Shown here in pieces: positions 1-53,559 of a stretch of 64,000 nucleotides of DNA. A model generated the notes under the pieces. The model had not been told where the DNA came from. It saw only the letters and a program-made list of their open reading frames with translations, and ran no database searches. A program made the position numbers and the translations under genes. The stretch lies in the NCBI GenBank assembly GCA_015039365.1, contig WION01000147.1, forward strand, positions 60,619-124,618, in the 5' to 3' direction. The first letter of the stretch is position 1; the number at the start of each line of letters is the position of its first letter. The stretch is from Amanita rubescens. Its lineage: Eukaryota; Basidiomycota; Agaricomycetes; Agaricales; Amanitaceae.

Positions 1-67
1 ACATGTTGAGGTCACATAAAATTTCCATAAATAAAACCGATCTTGAGTAAATTAGCAACCATCCGAT

Positions 68-32283: not shown

Positions 32284-34142
32284 ATGGGATCCAAGGACAA
32301 CATTCCGACTGGCAGTTCGAGCTTGCGGTGCATGCGGCCACACTCAGATAGCGAGGTAGAAACACAACCTATCGGCACAGGACTCTTCCCAGGCTCTCAC
32401 GACTTCCAAATCAACAACTCCCAGCTTATTGATTTCAGTCAGAATGTCTATTACCCCAAGGAGGGGACATGTAAATGCCGTTTGCCCTTTTGATTCTATG
32501 ATCACCGTTTTAATTGTGAACCATAGATCTTGAGCACCTTCAAAAGCATATTTCGGAAGGTGCACTTCATGATTCCCTGGCACGTTTTCCTCCACCCATG
32601 TGCCATCCCCAAACCCGTGAAAAAGTCTTGGAAATAATCACGGATTGGGTTAACGATCCACACGCGCGACAGCCTATCATATGGTTAAACGGCCCCGCAG
32701 GAGCCGGGAAATCTGCCATTGCCCAAACGATTGCCAGGCGCTCGGGTGAGCAATTAGCAGCGTCGTATTTCTTTCTTAGAAACAGCTCGGATCGAGGTGC
32801 TGCGACGCGTTTATTCACGACGTTGGCCTGGCAACTTGCGCAGAACATACCTGAACTACTCTCCTACATTGAATCGGCCATCAAGACAGAACCTCTCTTT
32901 TACACCAAATCCCTTGATATCCATTTCGAGCGTCTCATAATACAGCCATTCCAAAAACTTTTACGTGACAAACCAGATTTCTGTCCACAAAAGTCGCTCG
33001 TCGTAATCGATGGTGTAGACGAATGCGCGCCTGATCGAGACCAGACGCTCTTTCTGAGGCTCATCGGCAATGGATTCTCAGAGATACCAATCCCACTACG
33101 TTTCCTGATATGCAGCAGACCGGAAGCCCACATTCAAGCGGCGTTTGAATCAGAAGTCATGGCCGGGATCGCCCATTCAGTTTCATTAAACGAACAGTTC
33201 AAGCCAGATGATGACACTCGAAGATATATGAAGGACGAATTCGCTCGTATCCGTACTGAACACAAGTTGTCACCTGGATGGCCACCAAGTACGGTGATTG
33301 AGCAGCTAGTCTCGAAATCGTCAGGGCAGTTCATATACGCCTCTACTGTGGTCAAGTTCGTCGACGACATATATGATGATCCCAGAGAACGACTTGACAT
33401 TGTATTGAAGACCCATCCAGTTAACTCTGCGTCACCATTTGCAGCGTTAGACCAGCTTTATATCCAGATACTTTCGCAACAGCCAAACATCAGGCTGTTG
33501 CGAGATCTATTCACGCTGATTATCGCTTTGCGTAACCCAGAAATCAAATTCGTACGTCGACGACTTCGGATCAAAGAAGAGGAACTCGAGCGCAAGTTAC
33601 TCAGGCTACGTTCCCTTGTTTGCACTTCACACCGTGATATCACGACGTATCATCTATCCCTACACGACTTCTTTCTCGACAAGAAGCGTGCGGGGAAGTA
33701 CTTTATACATCCCATTCGGGTTACCTTTGTGCGACTACCAAAAATCATGAGTTCGGCACGGGAACCCATAATTGGGCTGCTTTCGGTAATGCTCAGGATA
33801 TATTCGGAAGTTATACTCGAGTCTTGGGCCATTGCCACATTGGTCTATGGAATAGAGCCAAAGCGGAGGACTACTAGTCTTCCCGTTAGGCTGGGAATTC
33901 TGCTCTTCCTCCTCATCCAATCTGCCCTGATGAATTACTTTGCCTTTGTTAATGGCTTACCTGCTTATTTCGTTATGATCTTCTCCTTACTCTTTTCTGG
34001 ACTTTACATAGAAAGGACCTATGGAACGTTCGAATCGAGGCGGCGGAACTTGAAGCCTCCCCTACAGTACGTCATCCTGCTTTCCCCGCACATTACCGCC
34101 CTCTGTCTCCTTATTTACCAACTTGTCTGCCCCCCACGTTGA
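32284..34142 (+). CDS. NACHT NTPase with multi-helix membrane tail, copy G
   Basis: Two exons: 32284-32470 and 32527-34142, with a 56-nt intron (ACAT|GTAAAT...CATAG). The leader is the same as copy F (GLFPGSHDFQINNSQLIDF). NACHT motifs are NGPAGAGKSAIAQT, LVVIDGVDECAPD and PLRFLICSRPE. YHLSLHDFFLDKKRAGKYF is followed by hydrophobic segments, including PVRLGILLFLLIQSALMNYF and YFVMIFSLLFSGLYI, and a last helix near the end (LLSPHITALCLLIYQLVCP). About 600 residues and apparently the most complete member of the multi-helix group. It is convergent with the intact F-box/LRR gene, in the arrangement that was partly duplicated with copy F. Confidence 0.88.
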
Positions 34143-34218
34143 GCTTGGGGCTATATACCTTGCCGTAAATGTAATCGATTTCACTGCTTGCCAGAACGAT
34201 CCAATCCAATAAATTATC

Positions 34219-34232
34219 AAAAATAAATAAAG
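34219..34232 (+). terminator. AATAAA-type polyadenylation signal after NACHT copy G
   Basis: AAAAATAAATAAAG about 80 bases after the stop, in the same position as in copies C and F. Confidence 0.45.
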
Positions 34233-34361
34233 ATCGACAACAGAGACGGAGTAATGAACGAAGTATGATCTGTGCTATGTATGACCGTTTGATGGTATGT
34301 ACAAGCAAGCACTCCAAGCGTGCTTGCATGCGTGCCGATTTCCAACCCCAAGAATAATACC

Positions 34362-46638: not shown

Positions 46639-49600
46639 ATGTGGGATGAATCAGATGATGCACTTGCATCTCGTGAGTGAAGTGTTTGTCTTGAATTGAT
46701 CAAAGCTTGAGATGTAAATGACAGAGGTGATTGGTATTCGCAGGGAGCAATACAAGTGTTCCCATTTTCGTATTCTTGTCATTGGGAGGGCCAATGCAGG
46801 CAAGACTACAATCCTTGAGAAGGTTTGTGGTGTAGCAAAAGGAACAGAGCCAATCATAATCTATGACAAGATGGGTAAGTTTGACATTGAAGTCCAATTT
46901 ACTTTTCAATCCTAATTGCTTTTTAGGCAGAGTACTGGTGCCTGATGAGACCCATGTGGCATCATCAATTGGGGTAAGTTGAGTGCATAAACCTCATGGA
47001 CCTGCTTACTGAGATGCATTAAACTGTAAGAGAGGCATACATGACATTGAACACCAGATTACATATGGAGGAAGCAACTTCATCTTCCATGATTCCCAAG
47101 GTTTTGAATCTGGTGCAAAGGAAGAGTTAGAGGTTGTTTGGGATTTCATTGAGAAGAGGTCTGCAGCAGCTAAGCTAAAGAATCAGTTACATGCAATTTG
47201 GTATCTTTCACATTTGTCTTTTGTGCAAATAACTGATCTAGGTTTTTATAGGTACTGTATACCTATGGACAGTTCTCGCCCCATTCTGCCTACAGAACTT
47301 GACTTCTTCAGTAAAGGAACAGGGAAAGGTGAGCCTTGAGCCCATATATTTGAACATGACTAATTGCTACTTCCACAGTTCCTTTGGTGGTCATATTCAC
47401 TAAGTTTGATGGACAAGTAATCCAAGAATCTGGAAAATTAAATGATATAGAAGATGATGCAGTTAAGTGGGATATGGCCATGGAGAATGCTGAAATCACT
47501 TTTCAGACTGTTTATCTTCCTAAAGTCTTTAATACTACATATCCCCCAAAAGCACATGTGCGATTGGAAGGTAAGGACAGTAAACATTTTCTGTTTCAAA
47601 ATAGGGATAATAATATTAATAGATATGGATATACCAGAGAATGACTGTCCTGAATTGACCAAGATAACTGCTGATGCTATTGATGATGAAAGTCTACAAG
47701 AATTGTTTGTCTCAACACAAATGAACAATCTTGGCCTTTGTGTCAAATATGGACTGAAGTAAGTGATGATAAATTTTCAATTTCAACTGTTGAGTTCTTC
47801 AGACATATCCTGAGCCGAAAGAACACTTCATGGGAAGTTGTTTTTGGCATAGTCATTTCCAAGTTTCCACATTATTGGGTATTTCACTAAGTAACCAATG
47901 TGACCACAAAAATGCTGAGCTGAAAGTAGATTGTCAGAGGAGTAAGTCTTTTGTACAAATTGTGTGGCAGCAATAATGCAAACATTCCACAAGGATGTAA
48001 GTGAATTGTATTATCATTTATTATGTGCACTGAGCAGAATAATGAACAGAATGTATGTCACACTGTTCTATGAAGTTTGATAAGTGATGACAAAATATTG
48101 TATCAAGGAGATTGATGTGAGTGATACCACAATATTGTTTTTGGCAGTAGATACATATGATGTCTTAAAACAATAGTGGGCAAGTGATACTGATACAGAC
48201 TTCAATGAGCACTAATATCATGATAAACAGTTTGTGAGTGATACTGAACATTCACAGCTAAGAAATCTCACTATACATAACAGGAAGTGAGTGACACTGT
48301 AAATTTCCTGAGAAACACTCACCAAGTCTCATTCTCCAATAAACAGAGGGCAAGTTACTATTTTCTTTTTTGAAATCAGCTCAATTTCATTTCAAACCAC
48401 AACCAACAGGCAGTAAGTGACAAAACCATTTTTTTTCAGGGAGTAAAATGCCATGTATCCCATGCCACATAGGATGTGAGTGGCTCACCAGCTTTTAAGG
48501 TGGAAACCCTTTCATCTTGATCAATTGCTGACAGAAAGTATGTGATATTTTGCTGCTGCTACTTCTCATTGAAGACATCCCATGGTTGGTAGACTGTAAG
48601 CAATTTCATTGTTCTACAGTACAGTCTTGTGACACCTCACCCTATGACCAATAGGCTGCAAGTGGACTCCACTCATTGTTTGTTAATAGTCTTATTTGAT
48701 CACAGGGAGTAAGTGACACTGCACAGTTATTGGTATGCATGTCTCAATATTGCACAACTTACAGGAAGTGAGTGATTATGTATGCACCTCTACATGCTAC
48801 TATTCAACGTCTACAGGAAGTGAGTGTTAATGTTATGAAAGTTTGCTGTCAAGTGTTCCAATATGTGTAATCCAATGGCAGAGAGTGAGAAATTGCATTG
48901 TTGAAACACAGCATATCTCACAGTTGTATCACCAATAGAATGTTTGTGATGCTGCAGTTATGTGGCCAGACAAACTCACCATGTGTTATCTTATGTCCAA
49001 TAGTTGGTTAGTGCTGGTGTAGCATATTAGACTCATTTCATTACATTCTCATGGCCAACAGTTTGTGAGTGACTCTGCACTTGTTCCTTTCAAAAGTCTT
49101 ACATATCTCATTTCATCTCATGATCAACAGGAAGTGAGTGGTGCTGCATTTGTTGCTTTAGCATCACCTCATTCATAATCAACAGAAAGTGAGTGAGATT
49201 GCACTTCTATGCCCAACACCTCAACACAATGGACCATAGAGAGTAAGTGATGCTCCATTTCTTTCCCAGCTAATCATAACATATGTACTGTATCTCACAC
49301 CATAACCGATAGAAAGTAAATGTCACAGCACTATTTCTTTGCCACTGGCTGATGCCTGTATCCAATGACCAACAGAATGTGAGACAGACTTTCCTTGCCA
49401 TGCAGGCAAATTTCTCATCCCATACCCAACAGTATGTGAGTGAAACAGCATTTATTTCATTGCTATGCAGTCTGACATGTGTCAATCCCTGACCTACAGA
49501 ATGTAAGTAATGCTTGTCTATACCAGGCAGTCTCATTTCATCTCATTCCATGATGGACAGGATGTGAGTGACATTGTATCTTTTTCTTAAACAGTCTCCT

Positions 49601-51896
49601 CACATCTTGTCTATAACCAATAGAATGTGAGCAATGTTTACCAGGTTGTCTTTCCACATCATCTCTGGAACAACAGGATGTGAGTAACACTGCATTTGTT
49701 TGTCTATGCAACGGTATCACCTCATACAATGACCCTCAGTATGTAAGAGTGACCTGCATTATTTAAAGATAGTTTTAATACATCTCACCACATGACCGAC
49801 AGGGAGTAAGTACATCTTTCTTTCCTTTTCCTGGATTCTCATCTCTTGACATTCAATAGTTTGTGAGCAACACCATTTTTTTCTTTTCCAGACAGATCAT
49901 ACCTCATTGCATAACAATAGTTTGTGAGACATTGCTTCTCTTTGTTTGAAAGGCAGTCTCAATAACCACTGTCCCATCTTCAACAGCTTGTGAGAGGGAT
50001 TACCTTTTTGGTCTTTCACAAGCAATGTGACATACATACATACATTATTGTGTGACTCACAGGATGTGAGTGATAGTACCTCACTTTTCACCATGACAGG
50101 CAGCTCAATACACATATTTCCTATAATGAATAGAGAGTGAGAAAAATTACAGCAGTCTCATGACAGTCTCATCACATGACCAATAGGGAGTGAGTGAAAC
50201 TGCATTTCTTTTCCCTTCCACACAGTTTCATTGTATTTTATCTTGCAAACAACAGGGAGTGAGTGATATTCAATTTTCAGTCTTTTCCTTGGAACTGGGA
50301 AGTCTCATCTTATGACCAACAGATTGTGAGTCCCACCCATTTTTATATCAGACAGTCTTCTCCCACTCAATTACAAACAGGATGTGAGTGACCCTGCCTT
50401 TTTTTGCCAAAAGTTTCATCACATTGAATGAATGTCATCGAAATTAACAGCCAGTAAGTGAATTTATTCATCCATACACTTGTCCATCTCTCACTGGCAT
50501 CCTATCACCAATAGGAGGTACTGATGCTATGTTTCATTTTGGGGGCAATCTCATCACCATTGCCAACAGAAAGTAAGTAGAATTGTCCTTTTATCCATGA
50601 AGCTTATCTCATGGCCAACAGAGAGTAAGTCATATTTTCTACCATCTATATTCATATCTTATTTTATGTTCAATAGGATGTAAGAGATGCTGTACTTCTT
50701 TCCGCACTCTCATTTCATCTTGGTCTACATATTCAAATTAATAGAAAGTGAGTGGCATTACATTTTTTTCTCTAATCTGTATCATAGTATTTACCCAACA
50801 GAGAGTAAGTACAACTATCATAGTGACAGACAACTTCTTCTCAGCTCAACCCATGACCCACAGCAAGTGAGTGCAATGCACCTTTTATGGCAAAAACCTC
50901 TTCTGATCCTGTTTTGTGACCAACAGCAGGTAAGCTTCACTACTCTCTTAAAGTAATTAATGCATTACTTCTGATCAACAGTTTGTGAGTCATTCTACAC
51001 TTTTTCAACCCATGCCCTTATAAATATCATTCTATCATATTAGTTTGTGAGTGAGACCAAGACTTTATTTGCCCAATCTCTTAGCACACTTTTTACATAA
51101 ACAACAGAAAGTATGTGGTATTCTTCTTTTTCTTTTTGAAAGACTTTATCCACTGTCAAATACAGAAAGTGAGTAGAATTACTTCATCCATAAAGGTGCT
51201 GTTTTGACAAGCTTACTTAACAGGATGTGAGTGAACATCTATTTTTTTTGTTATATTGTTTTCCTGAAAAAACCTCATCAACATTCCAGATTGTAAGACA
51301 GTTTCAATTAAGTTTTCTGCCCCCCTTCCATGAAAATTGTTCCCTGTGTTCTCCAGGTGGGCAATCATCATGTATGAGATGTCCAAAAAGCCATACCAAT
51401 TTTGTACATATATTTAGCTTGTATGTGTCCACTGCTGAGTGGGAACTTCCTTGATTAATGATTCCACATTTATTTTCATCAGTCAGTGCTTCTCCCATTG
51501 TTTGGAAATAAGTCATCAACATTCTCAACAACTGTAAGACCTTTCTCCACCATGTTGTTTTACATTTGTTGATTGATGTTGTTGTTACCAGCCTACTGAA
51601 TGTCAAGTCTTAGTTGGTAATGGATCTTATCTATTTATTTATTTTTGAGAGAGCTGATGTTTAAAGCGATCAATATCATTGCAAAACTATCATTTTGTAT
51701 AATGGAGCCAATGGAGACTTTTGCAACTCTTGCTGAAATAGAACAAGCATTTCAGCAATCAATTGTGGATGCTTTGGATGAGTTCATAAGTGAGGAGTAT
51801 GCAAAAAAACTCAAAACAAGCATTACTTCAGAGTTTTTGCCATCTGGTCATCAAGATTTACTTGTATTCTTGTATGATCAGACTGATAAGATCTAA
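46639..51896 (+). CDS. P-loop GTPase whose middle is encoded by a run of 3-nt exons
   Basis: Exons 1-8 are ordinary: 46639-46672, 46725-46874, 46927-46973, 47031-47200, 47252-47328, 47379-47570, 47623-47758 and 47803-47878. They encode a G domain with G1 IGRANAGKTTIL, G3 FHDSQGFESG and a G4-like IFTKFDGQ, ending KYGLKHILSRKN...SKFPHYW. From 47940 the frame continues only as a 2-nt exon (GA), 54 three-nt exons and one 9-nt exon (up to 51292). Exons of 15 nt (51357-51371), 3 nt (51418-51420), 51 nt (51483-51533) and a last exon (51650-51896, ...MEPMETFATLAEIEQAF...) follow. Phases agree at every joint and the sum, 1371 nt, gives 456 residues. The array segment would be an Ile/Leu/Lys/Glu-rich helical stretch. 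The G domain is firm; the full splice model is inference from the sequence. Transcript support is needed to exclude a pseudogene. Confidence 0.7.
47940..51420 (+). repeat. array of about 57 consecutive micro-exons (2, 3 or 9 nt)
   Basis: The motif [C/T]A[C/T]AG-NNN-GTRAGT recurs about every 60 bases. Between the AG and the GT/GC there are exactly 3 bases in 55 units; exceptions are the first unit (2 or 4 nt depending on the AG chosen) and the third (9 nt at 48108-48116). The triplets vary: GAT 8, AAA 7, TTT 6, AGA 5, AAT 5, GGA 4, GAA 4, TAT, ATT and CTT 2 each, and ten others once. None is a stop. Intervening segments are 46-73 nt. Three units (48180, 48350 and 48658) have GC instead of GT but otherwise perfect donors. 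The introns share a 3' end resembling CATGACCAACAG, with a branch-point-like TGAC or TAAC very near the AG. Confidence 0.85.
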
Positions 51897-52443: not shown

Positions 52444-53559
52444 TCAATTGTTCCGCTCATTCGCTGGAACAGGGGTATACAGGACCTGTCCATTCTTCTT
52501 GAACGTTGCAACAACCTCCTGCCCGCCATTATCACTGATTACCCAGTTCATGAAGCTAGAAGCCAGATCCTTTTGAGGTGCTTTAGTTCCCTGTAGACAA
52601 TGGGCAGGGTTCAGTAGCAAATGCTGTGGGTCGTTCTCATCGCCCCGTTTGTAGATGTTAAGAGCATCCGTAACCTGCGACGGCGACGAAAGCCAGGTGC
52701 CACGATCGGTCAACGTGTATTCATCCAAGACCGATGCTCCCTTGAGCGCCTGGAGTGGGAATTGCGGGTATTGGTGGTACCACTTCGAGTACGTTAAGGC
52801 CCACGGAACCTGGCCGATGGTAGTGAACAACAAGCTTTCCTTGATGTTGGTCGCACTCTTGTCATATCTAGAAAGAAAACGAGCTGCAGGTCGATTTGAT
52901 GGTGGAGTCTACAAGGAGTGAAGTCAAACATAAGTGTATGACCATGCGCAGGAGATTACTTACCGCGACATCAGCATTCCCTTGGGTCACAATTCTATTC
53001 AACGAATCATAGAGATCCGGGGAGTTAGCCAAGTTAGCAGGATCTGATTTAGGGCCGGCGAGGTAGAAATGATCCTATATATCGTTCAAGGCGCCATTGA
53101 TCAGCAATGCTGGTGAACTCACTTGGAAGGCATATACCCTGCTCGCCGCATATCCTGAACTCACGGCATGCTTTTCAGCCAGTTCGTTATAGGTGACTGC
53201 AATATCGACGTCGCCAGCCTGCAAAAAAGCAAGTGATTCGGTTGTATCTCCCAGGTACCAGTCAACCTATATTGTTTTTGTTTGCTCAGCTCCTTATAAT
53301 GTTCATGCTCGTCAGAACGTACGTAAAATGGCTCTGTCCCGTTTGCAACGCTGTCATTGATGAATTTGAGCGCCCATGCCTCGATGAGACCGGATTGCCC
53401 TGCTCCTCCATTGGCTATGCGCAAAGAACGATTCCCGCTCGTACCGTACCGCGCGGTGTAAGTTAGACCGCATGACGAGTTGTTGGCAGTCTGCGCAGAT
53501 ACTAGATTGAGAAAGGAGGTAAGTATCAAAGCCGCAAAGGCGAAAGTGGATTTGCCCAT
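52444..53559 (-). CDS. secreted PBP-like (TupA/PstS-type) binding protein
   Basis: A multi-exon minus-strand gene. The start MGKSTFAFAALILTSFLNLVSAQ is a signal peptide with an AQ cleavage-like end. Then come RIANGGAGQSGLIEAWALKF, an intron (TTTTAC|GTACGT...TATAG), VDWYLGDTTESLAFLQAGDV, DIAVTYNELAEKHAV, an intron (CCAA|GTGAGT...TATAG), DHFYLAGPKSDPANLANSPD, a third intron (GCG|GTAAGT...TGTAG) and the last exon TPPSNRPAARFLSRYDKSAT to the stop at 52444. The order DWYxGDTxESLxFLQAGxVDIAVTYN ... PxSNRPAARFLSRxDxSATNxKE is that of the fungal PBP-domain family related to bacterial tungstate/molybdate-binding proteins. Fungi lack the matching ABC importer, so its role outside the cell is unknown. 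Confidence 0.8.

Follow-up and report, generated by a model that had tools for sequence, protein, structure and literature searches.

Consecutive one-codon exons in a GTPase gene of Amanita rubescens, very probably grown by tandem copying of a codon and an intron

The window analysed here is the whole stretch of 64,000 nucleotides (nt) of Amanita rubescens DNA given by bases 60619-124618 of contig C54, in an assembly of 75.7 Mb and 786 contigs. From base 46639 onward it contains a GTPase gene, to which the A. rubescens protein F5887DRAFT_119034 (P0001) was 100% identical in a protein search. An array of very small exons lies between the GTPase exons and the C-terminal exons of this gene, and its existence in the window is confirmed. 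We consider it very probable that nearly every codon of this coding segment is an exon of its own and that such arrays grew by tandem copying of one codon together with one intron. The features of the gene are as follows, L numbers denoting other arrays and P numbers homologous proteins.

46639-46672, 46725-46874, 46927-46973, 47031-47200, 47252-47328, 47379-47570, 47623-47758 and 47803-47878, plus strand: eight ordinary upstream exons, from the spliced alignment of the annotated protein P0001
47879-51482, plus strand: 58 introns flanking the small exons, each 48-73 nt long apart from one of 125 nt, mean 58.9 nt, from the gene model
47930-51420, plus strand: small exons of the array, 57 in all (55 of 3 nt, one of 9 nt and one of 12 nt)
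47930-47941, plus strand: 12-nt exon ATTGTCAGAGGA (IVRG), from the gene model; paralogues have a 12-nt exon at the same place (VGRE in L069, VDRG in L070)
48108-48116, plus strand: 9-nt exon GAGATTGAT (EID), from the ab initio parse and the gene model; matches EID of NEIDWFE in P0004
47994-51420, plus strand: 55 exons of exactly 3 nt, from the ab initio parse, the full gene model, peptide homology and the spliced alignment of P0004
First bases of 3-nt exons 1-28, plus strand: 47994, 48050, 48177, 48231, 48284, 48347, 48410, 48473, 48535, 48593, 48655, 48706, 48765, 48817, 48882, 48939, 49004, 49062, 49131, 49186, 49240, 49313, 49376, 49433, 49500, 49561, 49624, 49677
First bases of 3-nt exons 29-55, plus strand: 49740, 49803, 49860, 49921, 49987, 50063, 50134, 50187, 50256, 50323, 50381, 50451, 50515, 50570, 50622, 50677, 50745, 50802, 50864, 50927, 50982, 51044, 51108, 51166, 51224, 51290, 51418
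51483-51533, plus strand: downstream exon of 51 nt, SVLLPLFGNKSSTFSTT, from the gene model and the alignment to P0004, P0007 and P0010
51592-51616, plus strand: downstream exon of 25 nt, PTECQVLV plus the first base of the codon for A, from the gene model and spliced protein alignment
51667-51896, plus strand: last exon of 230 nt, ..INIIAKLSF .. FLYDQTDKI plus the stop codon, from the gene model; its start also from spliced protein alignment

The whole gene has 68 exons (8 upstream, 57 small and 3 downstream) with 1374 nt of coding sequence, which form a single open frame of 457 codons closed by a stop. The GTPase domain (G domain) is encoded by the eight upstream exons, with the P-loop GRANAGKTT, and ends with ..SKFPHYW at 47878 in phase 0. 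It was recognised as a P-loop domain of the MMR_HSR1 type (Pfam PF01926, 22.5 bits against a cut-off of 21.9, expectation value (E) 1.2e-4), and a search of solved structures gave one weak match, GTPase Der 7am2 (E 7e-4). A Pfam search with the full-length JGI proteins P0004 and P0010 gave no match.

Joined together, the small exons give 186 coding nt in a segment of 3604 nt, about 95% of which is intron, and encode 62 residues reading IVRGDNEIDWFERADK..KKDIL. All 55 of the 3-nt exons are in phase 0. The introns around these micro-exons are canonical, since the donors of the gene's 67 introns are GT in 64 cases and GC in three (48180, 48350 and 48658, all inside the array) and the acceptors are AG throughout. 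Of the donors that follow 3-nt exons, 32 read GTRAGT and 53 carry G at +5; a putative branch site with the consensus TATGACCAACAG was found near the AG.

An ab initio parse of 47879-51482 was made with splice-site and branch-point scores and a flat prior on exon length up to 220 nt. It returned 58 exons, 53 of them exactly 3 nt long (51 of 57 at two higher intron penalties). Two 7-nt exons of the parse became 3-nt exons with a GC donor (TGG/gcaagt and AGG/gcaagt), giving 55. The final choices (GC donors, 12-nt exon, removal of a 15-nt exon) leaned on protein comparison, and the unguided figure is 53 of 58. The 15-nt exon at 51357-51371 was dropped because homologue alignments put no residue there, and a 4-nt exon was replaced by the 12-nt exon at 47930-47941, which keeps the frame and is matched by the paralogues. 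The count of 55 one-codon units, one unit of 9 nt and 20 kinds of triplet with no stop, given in a preliminary description of this DNA, was thus reproduced, and what had been described there as a 2-nt unit is better read as the 12-nt exon. In the window, the pattern AYAG-N3-GTRAGT had 30 matches on the plus strand and 0 on the minus strand.

The 125-nt intron, which lies ahead of the last triplet, holds an AG/GT at 51356, a zero-length, ratchet-like exon, and the aligner leaves an empty exon inside this intron. An AG/GT is likewise found in the corresponding intron of the paralogue L069 (G000:C1:34201), and this intron of the window gene may therefore be removed in two steps. Zero-length sites as a general rule were rejected, because in 72 loci spacing 0 was found once and spacing 3 was found 246 times; the AG/GT at 51356 is the exception.

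Alignment to related proteins had been proposed in the preliminary description, and it placed the small-exon peptide where it should be. With the 62-residue peptide as the query against the 120 homologues listed for the upstream part, the top four matches were P0004 (44.7 bits, E 9e-10), P0010 (39.3 bits), P0007 (30.8 bits) and P0018 (25.8 bits), all of them JGI proteins whose contigs are short. Among 200 shuffles the highest value was 28.1 bits, and the reversed peptide gave 21.6 bits, so that P0004, P0010 and P0007 exceed all shuffles. The alignment sits right after the conserved FPH.W (NEIDWFERADKTAGEER vs NEIDWFESADDAAGKER in P0004). The JGI contigs are about 1.5 kb long, and with 478 residues on a contig of 1486 nt there is no room for introns in that of P0004. 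When P0004 was spliced onto the window gene, the score was 452.5, compared with 375 ± 8.8 and a maximum of 398.8 in 40 shuffles of the middle segment, and 46 of 97 aligned residues were identical. The C-terminal part of P0004, used as a database query, matched only P0004 and P0007.

The nearest relative of P0004 found in the A. rubescens genome is the paralogue at C1:29.7-34.5 kb (L069; 86 and 90% identity in two exons). In a spliced alignment from SKFPHYW on, P0004 and this paralogue agreed at 80 of the 98 residues aligned, and 48 of the 57 exons were 3 nt long; the score was 637 compared with 417 ± 11 and a maximum of 446 in 40 shuffles of the middle segment. Here the triplets W-F-E-S-A-D-N-A-A-A-K-E-R-Q-Y-Y-D-D-G-V-H.. 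of the paralogue correspond to WFESADDAAGKEREYYDDGIH... in P0004. A second case is P0016, in which WFEKGKKESDREIEYDG corresponds to the triplets WFEQGKKETDRETKYDG of L070. When seven JGI proteins were compared with 19 sites, long close runs of triplets were found for P0004 and P0016 and a shorter, gapped one for P0080, while P0007, P0010, P0018 and P0061 aligned less well. Inclusion in the mature messenger RNA (mRNA) is suggested by proteins of relatives, read without introns, that match the triplet peptide. Since the protein stretch spelled by the triplets resembles these proteins, the triplets are very probably spliced by cells, judging from sequence comparison. One-codon exons inside a fungal GTPase gene, as first described, remain the best reading, with the frame open through 68 exons and the peptide homologous at the right place.

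The paralogue L069 has a 4-nt unit, AGCT, at G000:C1:32494, opposite a single P0004 residue left unmatched, and last exons of odd length at about 34028-34310; this copy may therefore be decaying.

It is unlikely that the triplets are exons used mainly by choice, with frame-neutral skipping giving very many isoforms from one gene. Skipping would be frame-neutral because all 55 exons are 3 nt long and in phase 0, and the 4-nt unit at C1:32494, which would shift the frame if included, is passed over in the P0004 alignment. However, each triplet used in the alignment to this paralogue has a counterpart in P0004 and none other is bypassed in the well-aligned part, indicating that at least that relative's transcript includes them together, and no isoforms were seen. 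A role of the array at the RNA level, where many introns slow or regulate expression and the peptide is incidental, would suit a segment that is mostly intron, but it is very improbable given the peptide homology to relatives and the in-frame flanks.

The same pattern is widespread in the genome. AAYAG-N3-GTRAGT had 5338 matches genome-wide compared with 292 for the reversed control pattern, while other spacings were near or below control (N2 152, control 260; N4 142, control 273; N6 208, control 192). Among spacings of 0 to 15 nt in the 72 loci, those other than 3 and 0 comprised 22 of 6, 9, 12 or 15 nt and seven of 2, 4 or 11 nt. Stop triplets were absent from the 255 triplets of the 72 loci and the window. 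Genome-wide, TAA/TGA triplets numbered 6 (control 12), TTA/TCA 47 (control 4) and TAT/TTT 663 (control 4); three of the six TAA/TGA triplets were inside arrays and three isolated. In 458 array triplets, a set partly chosen for TGA-bearing loci, TAA was found 0 times (19.0 expected from base frequencies), TAG 0 times (2.1 expected) and TGA 4 times (9.4 expected).

In these 458 triplets the third base is C in 3 and G in 27, and in the G-domain codons of the window gene it is C in 16% and G in 20%. Units with 6-nt exons (e.g., AACAG-CAATCT-GTGAGT), spaced by 62-68 base pairs (bp), were seen at G000:C190:186271-188421, G000:C120:27631-27709 and G000:C139:27544-27622, so two-codon exons may exist too.

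From the pattern count and the strict matches per array (28 on average in eight arrays, some incompletely covered), the A. rubescens genome is roughly estimated to hold about 180 arrays, duplicate contigs counted twice. Of 12 arrays checked, 11 adjoin exons of the window's GTPase family.

Window array and L069-L072: adjoin G-domain matches of the GTPase family
L079, L080, L081 (with L083) and L082: selected by pattern clusters alone; all four border family exons
L079: borders the family only through a C-terminal exon
L081: borders the family via the added stretch L083
L073 and L076: C-terminal exons of the family present
L075: no flanking exon in the 3 kb examined

The arrays differ widely in how similar their adjacent introns are. 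The similarity of adjacent intron cores was 0.89 in L080, 0.60 in L081, 0.33 in L070, 0.32 in L082 and 0.25 in L071. The values for the window, L069, L072 and L079 were near 0, and shuffled introns score about -0.1 (window, -0.004 vs -0.093 shuffled). The arrays are thus of different ages, the young ones being tandem repeats of a codon plus an intron with a clear period of about 61-64 bp. The intron similarity indicates that arrays grew through tandem duplication of a single codon together with a single intron, and in the old arrays, including that of the window, little is left beyond the splice signals and the 3-nt length.

Tandem repeats of this kind would also be expected if the array were a minisatellite built of intron-derived units, either non-coding or in decay, that the mRNA skips or retains, with the 3-nt spacing inherited from a founding repeat. 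Tandem similarity is evident in the young arrays L080 and L081, and in the window the array is absent from the annotation. In the window array itself the intron similarity is only slightly above shuffled, and Tandem Repeats Finder reported no tandem repeat there. However, the window introns vary from 48 to 73 nt while 55 exons stay at exactly 3 nt, genome-wide spacings of 2 and 4 are below control, and the triplet peptide has homologues among proteins read without introns, which makes this explanation extremely improbable. Decay as the sole cause was ruled out by the exon length kept at 3 nt where intron interiors hardly align. The preliminary description had set the array apart from a decaying minisatellite; this stands as far as exon length and splice sites are kept, while the units do look like an old codon-plus-intron tandem repeat, of the kind still visible in young arrays.

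Codon variation exceeds intron variation in the younger arrays. Column diversity at the three exon positions was 0.24, 0.66 and 0.30 in L080 (intron mean 0.09) and 0.59, 0.65 and 0.56 in L081 (intron mean 0.17); the exon columns were above every intron-core column in L080 and L081 and above the intron mean in L070, L082 and L071. In L080, 30 adjacent intron pairs were identical, with the codon differing in 17 of them, and in 36 close pairs 30 of 108 exon positions differed compared with 6 of 1512 intron positions. The array peptide of L080 (G000:C13:579501-585000) is mostly Q, L and R, with codons differing mainly at the second base. The pattern looks as if selection acted on the residues: these would have been driven apart, or a needed peptide would have been kept while the introns were homogenised, and either way the codons would matter. 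Nine duplicate contig pairs, used as a selection test, had 0 substitutions in the compared 3-nt exons, and in one pair the rest of the array span had up to 19; the pairs are too alike to tell selection, and the ninth has no overlap in the array.

Different codons between identical introns would also be expected if near-identical introns, of the kind that introner-like elements disperse in unrelated genes, had been inserted into a coding stretch already present, between each codon and the next. Such insertion would have to hit every codon boundary, solely in phase 0, whereas runs of the same codon (CTA x7) suggest copying of units. In addition, in a survey that covered arrays, the four pattern-chosen ones (L079, L080, L081 with L083, and L082) are all in one gene family. 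Insertion is accordingly regarded as quite unlikely, and copying of a codon plus an intron is preferred. The evidence behind this preferred reading comprises the open frame, the homology, the 3-nt rule, the repeat ancestry of the young arrays and the excess codon variation; the repeat origin and the codon variation, together with the genome-wide scale and the tie to one family, are additions to the preliminary description.

Several observations speak against coding arrays of this origin. The public annotation ends at the array, P0001 finishing with PHYWVFH three residues into the first array intron; as the public protein stops at the array start, the annotation would have missed the downstream part. 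P0018 (25.8 bits) is not above the shuffles, many of the 120 homologues end near FPHYW, and few beyond those of JGI could match the array peptide. When the array piece alone was searched in the 5.8-billion set, 3 candidates were returned, none at E <= 10. The JGI proteins are those of relatives (best matches of P0004, P0007, P0010, P0016 and P0018 to other listed proteins are 72-83%), and it is the length of the JGI contigs that suggests they are complementary DNA. The DNA and the relatives' proteins suggest splicing of the window gene in vivo, no A. rubescens transcript having been seen. Alignment to the C1 paralogue is irregular over its last exons: the downstream end of that locus gives no clean reading frame, and 1-nt and 7-nt exons are forced near the end. 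TTA is also found 0 times in the 458 triplets (11.1 expected), so that part of the deficit is unrelated to stops and the stop test is weaker than it appears, and three arrays (L073, L075 and L076) carry a TGA triplet in mid-array. In old arrays (window and L069), codons are no more diverse than introns. The codon variants of young arrays may be few and shuffled by unequal exchange; in L080 they are few (mainly CAA, CTA, CGA and CTT) and have probably been shuffled in this way, so the pair counts are not independent.

The proposed mechanism starts from the pre-mRNA, from which 58 short introns would be cut while the triplets are joined in frame, placing 62 residues between the GTPase and C-terminal parts. 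Since a 3-nt exon is unlikely to hold 3' and 5' complexes together, the introns are probably removed one by one by intron definition, a mode that agrees with their length (48-73 nt), the strength of most donors and the probable branch site near the AG. The arrays would start and lengthen as units of about 60 bp, each made of a codon plus an intron, are copied in tandem, and each unit gained or lost would change one residue with no frame shift. Later the introns would drift except for the splice signals, the exon length remaining fixed at 3, and the window array presumably had the same repeat origin as the young arrays. Residues would then be kept or diversified by selection, which may act on what the protein recognises, leaving a segment strongly different among family members. 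We moderately favour the further view that the codon-intron repeat builds a hypervariable segment, its instability adding, removing or swapping single residues without harm to the frame. Very roughly 180 arrays would then diversify an expanded GTPase family under diversifying selection, possibly for self/non-self recognition and possibly with exon skipping.

In micro-exon genes of schistosomes and in aphid bicycle genes, exons are longer and of differing length. A schistosome-type micro-exon gene has a coding region that consists mostly of numerous short exons, which are frame-neutral and vary in length. The A. rubescens gene resembles these genes in having many small exons per gene and rapidly varying proteins. 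It differs in that its array exons keep to the length of a single codon and that its young units are copies in tandem; its 57 small exons are consecutive, 55 of them have one length, and most of the protein comes from ordinary exons, so it does not belong to the schistosome type. Known new introns also copy existing intron sequence, but here each copy brings exactly one codon, dozens of times per gene. Schistosome micro-exon genes are the subject of PMC4350168 and PMC5825161. According to the accessible text of the respective reports, exons of 1 nt in Arabidopsis APC11 (PMC4674806) and Fusarium CYP621A (PMC12940212) and of 3 bp in Drosophila homothorax (PMC7392893) likewise lie between spliceosomal introns and are easily overlooked by annotation, one such exon per gene. 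In contrast, A. rubescens has 55 consecutive ones and, over the whole genome, thousands of units, in one family as far as checked. The P450 genes of Phanerochaete chrysosporium are also basidiomycete genes with frequent short introns (45-55 bp) and micro-exons down to 6 bp, but their small exons are scattered over many genes, and the accessible text mentions no arrays (PMC1184071). A literature search, with most subscription papers and preprints outside its reach, turned up neither one-codon exons in succession nor any description of Amanita micro-exons.

Published cases of 1-3 nt exons are single ones, while here the spliceosome would have to join dozens, ordered and in frame, in many genes. 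The limits of exon size, the order of splicing and intron definition thereby become directly testable, a path of intron gain by one codon per step becomes visible, and gene prediction can miss a whole protein segment.

Beyond the gene, an open frame on the minus strand at 52447-52908 scored 23.6 bits against PBP_like_2, a domain like that of substrate-binding proteins, which is below the cut-off of 27.

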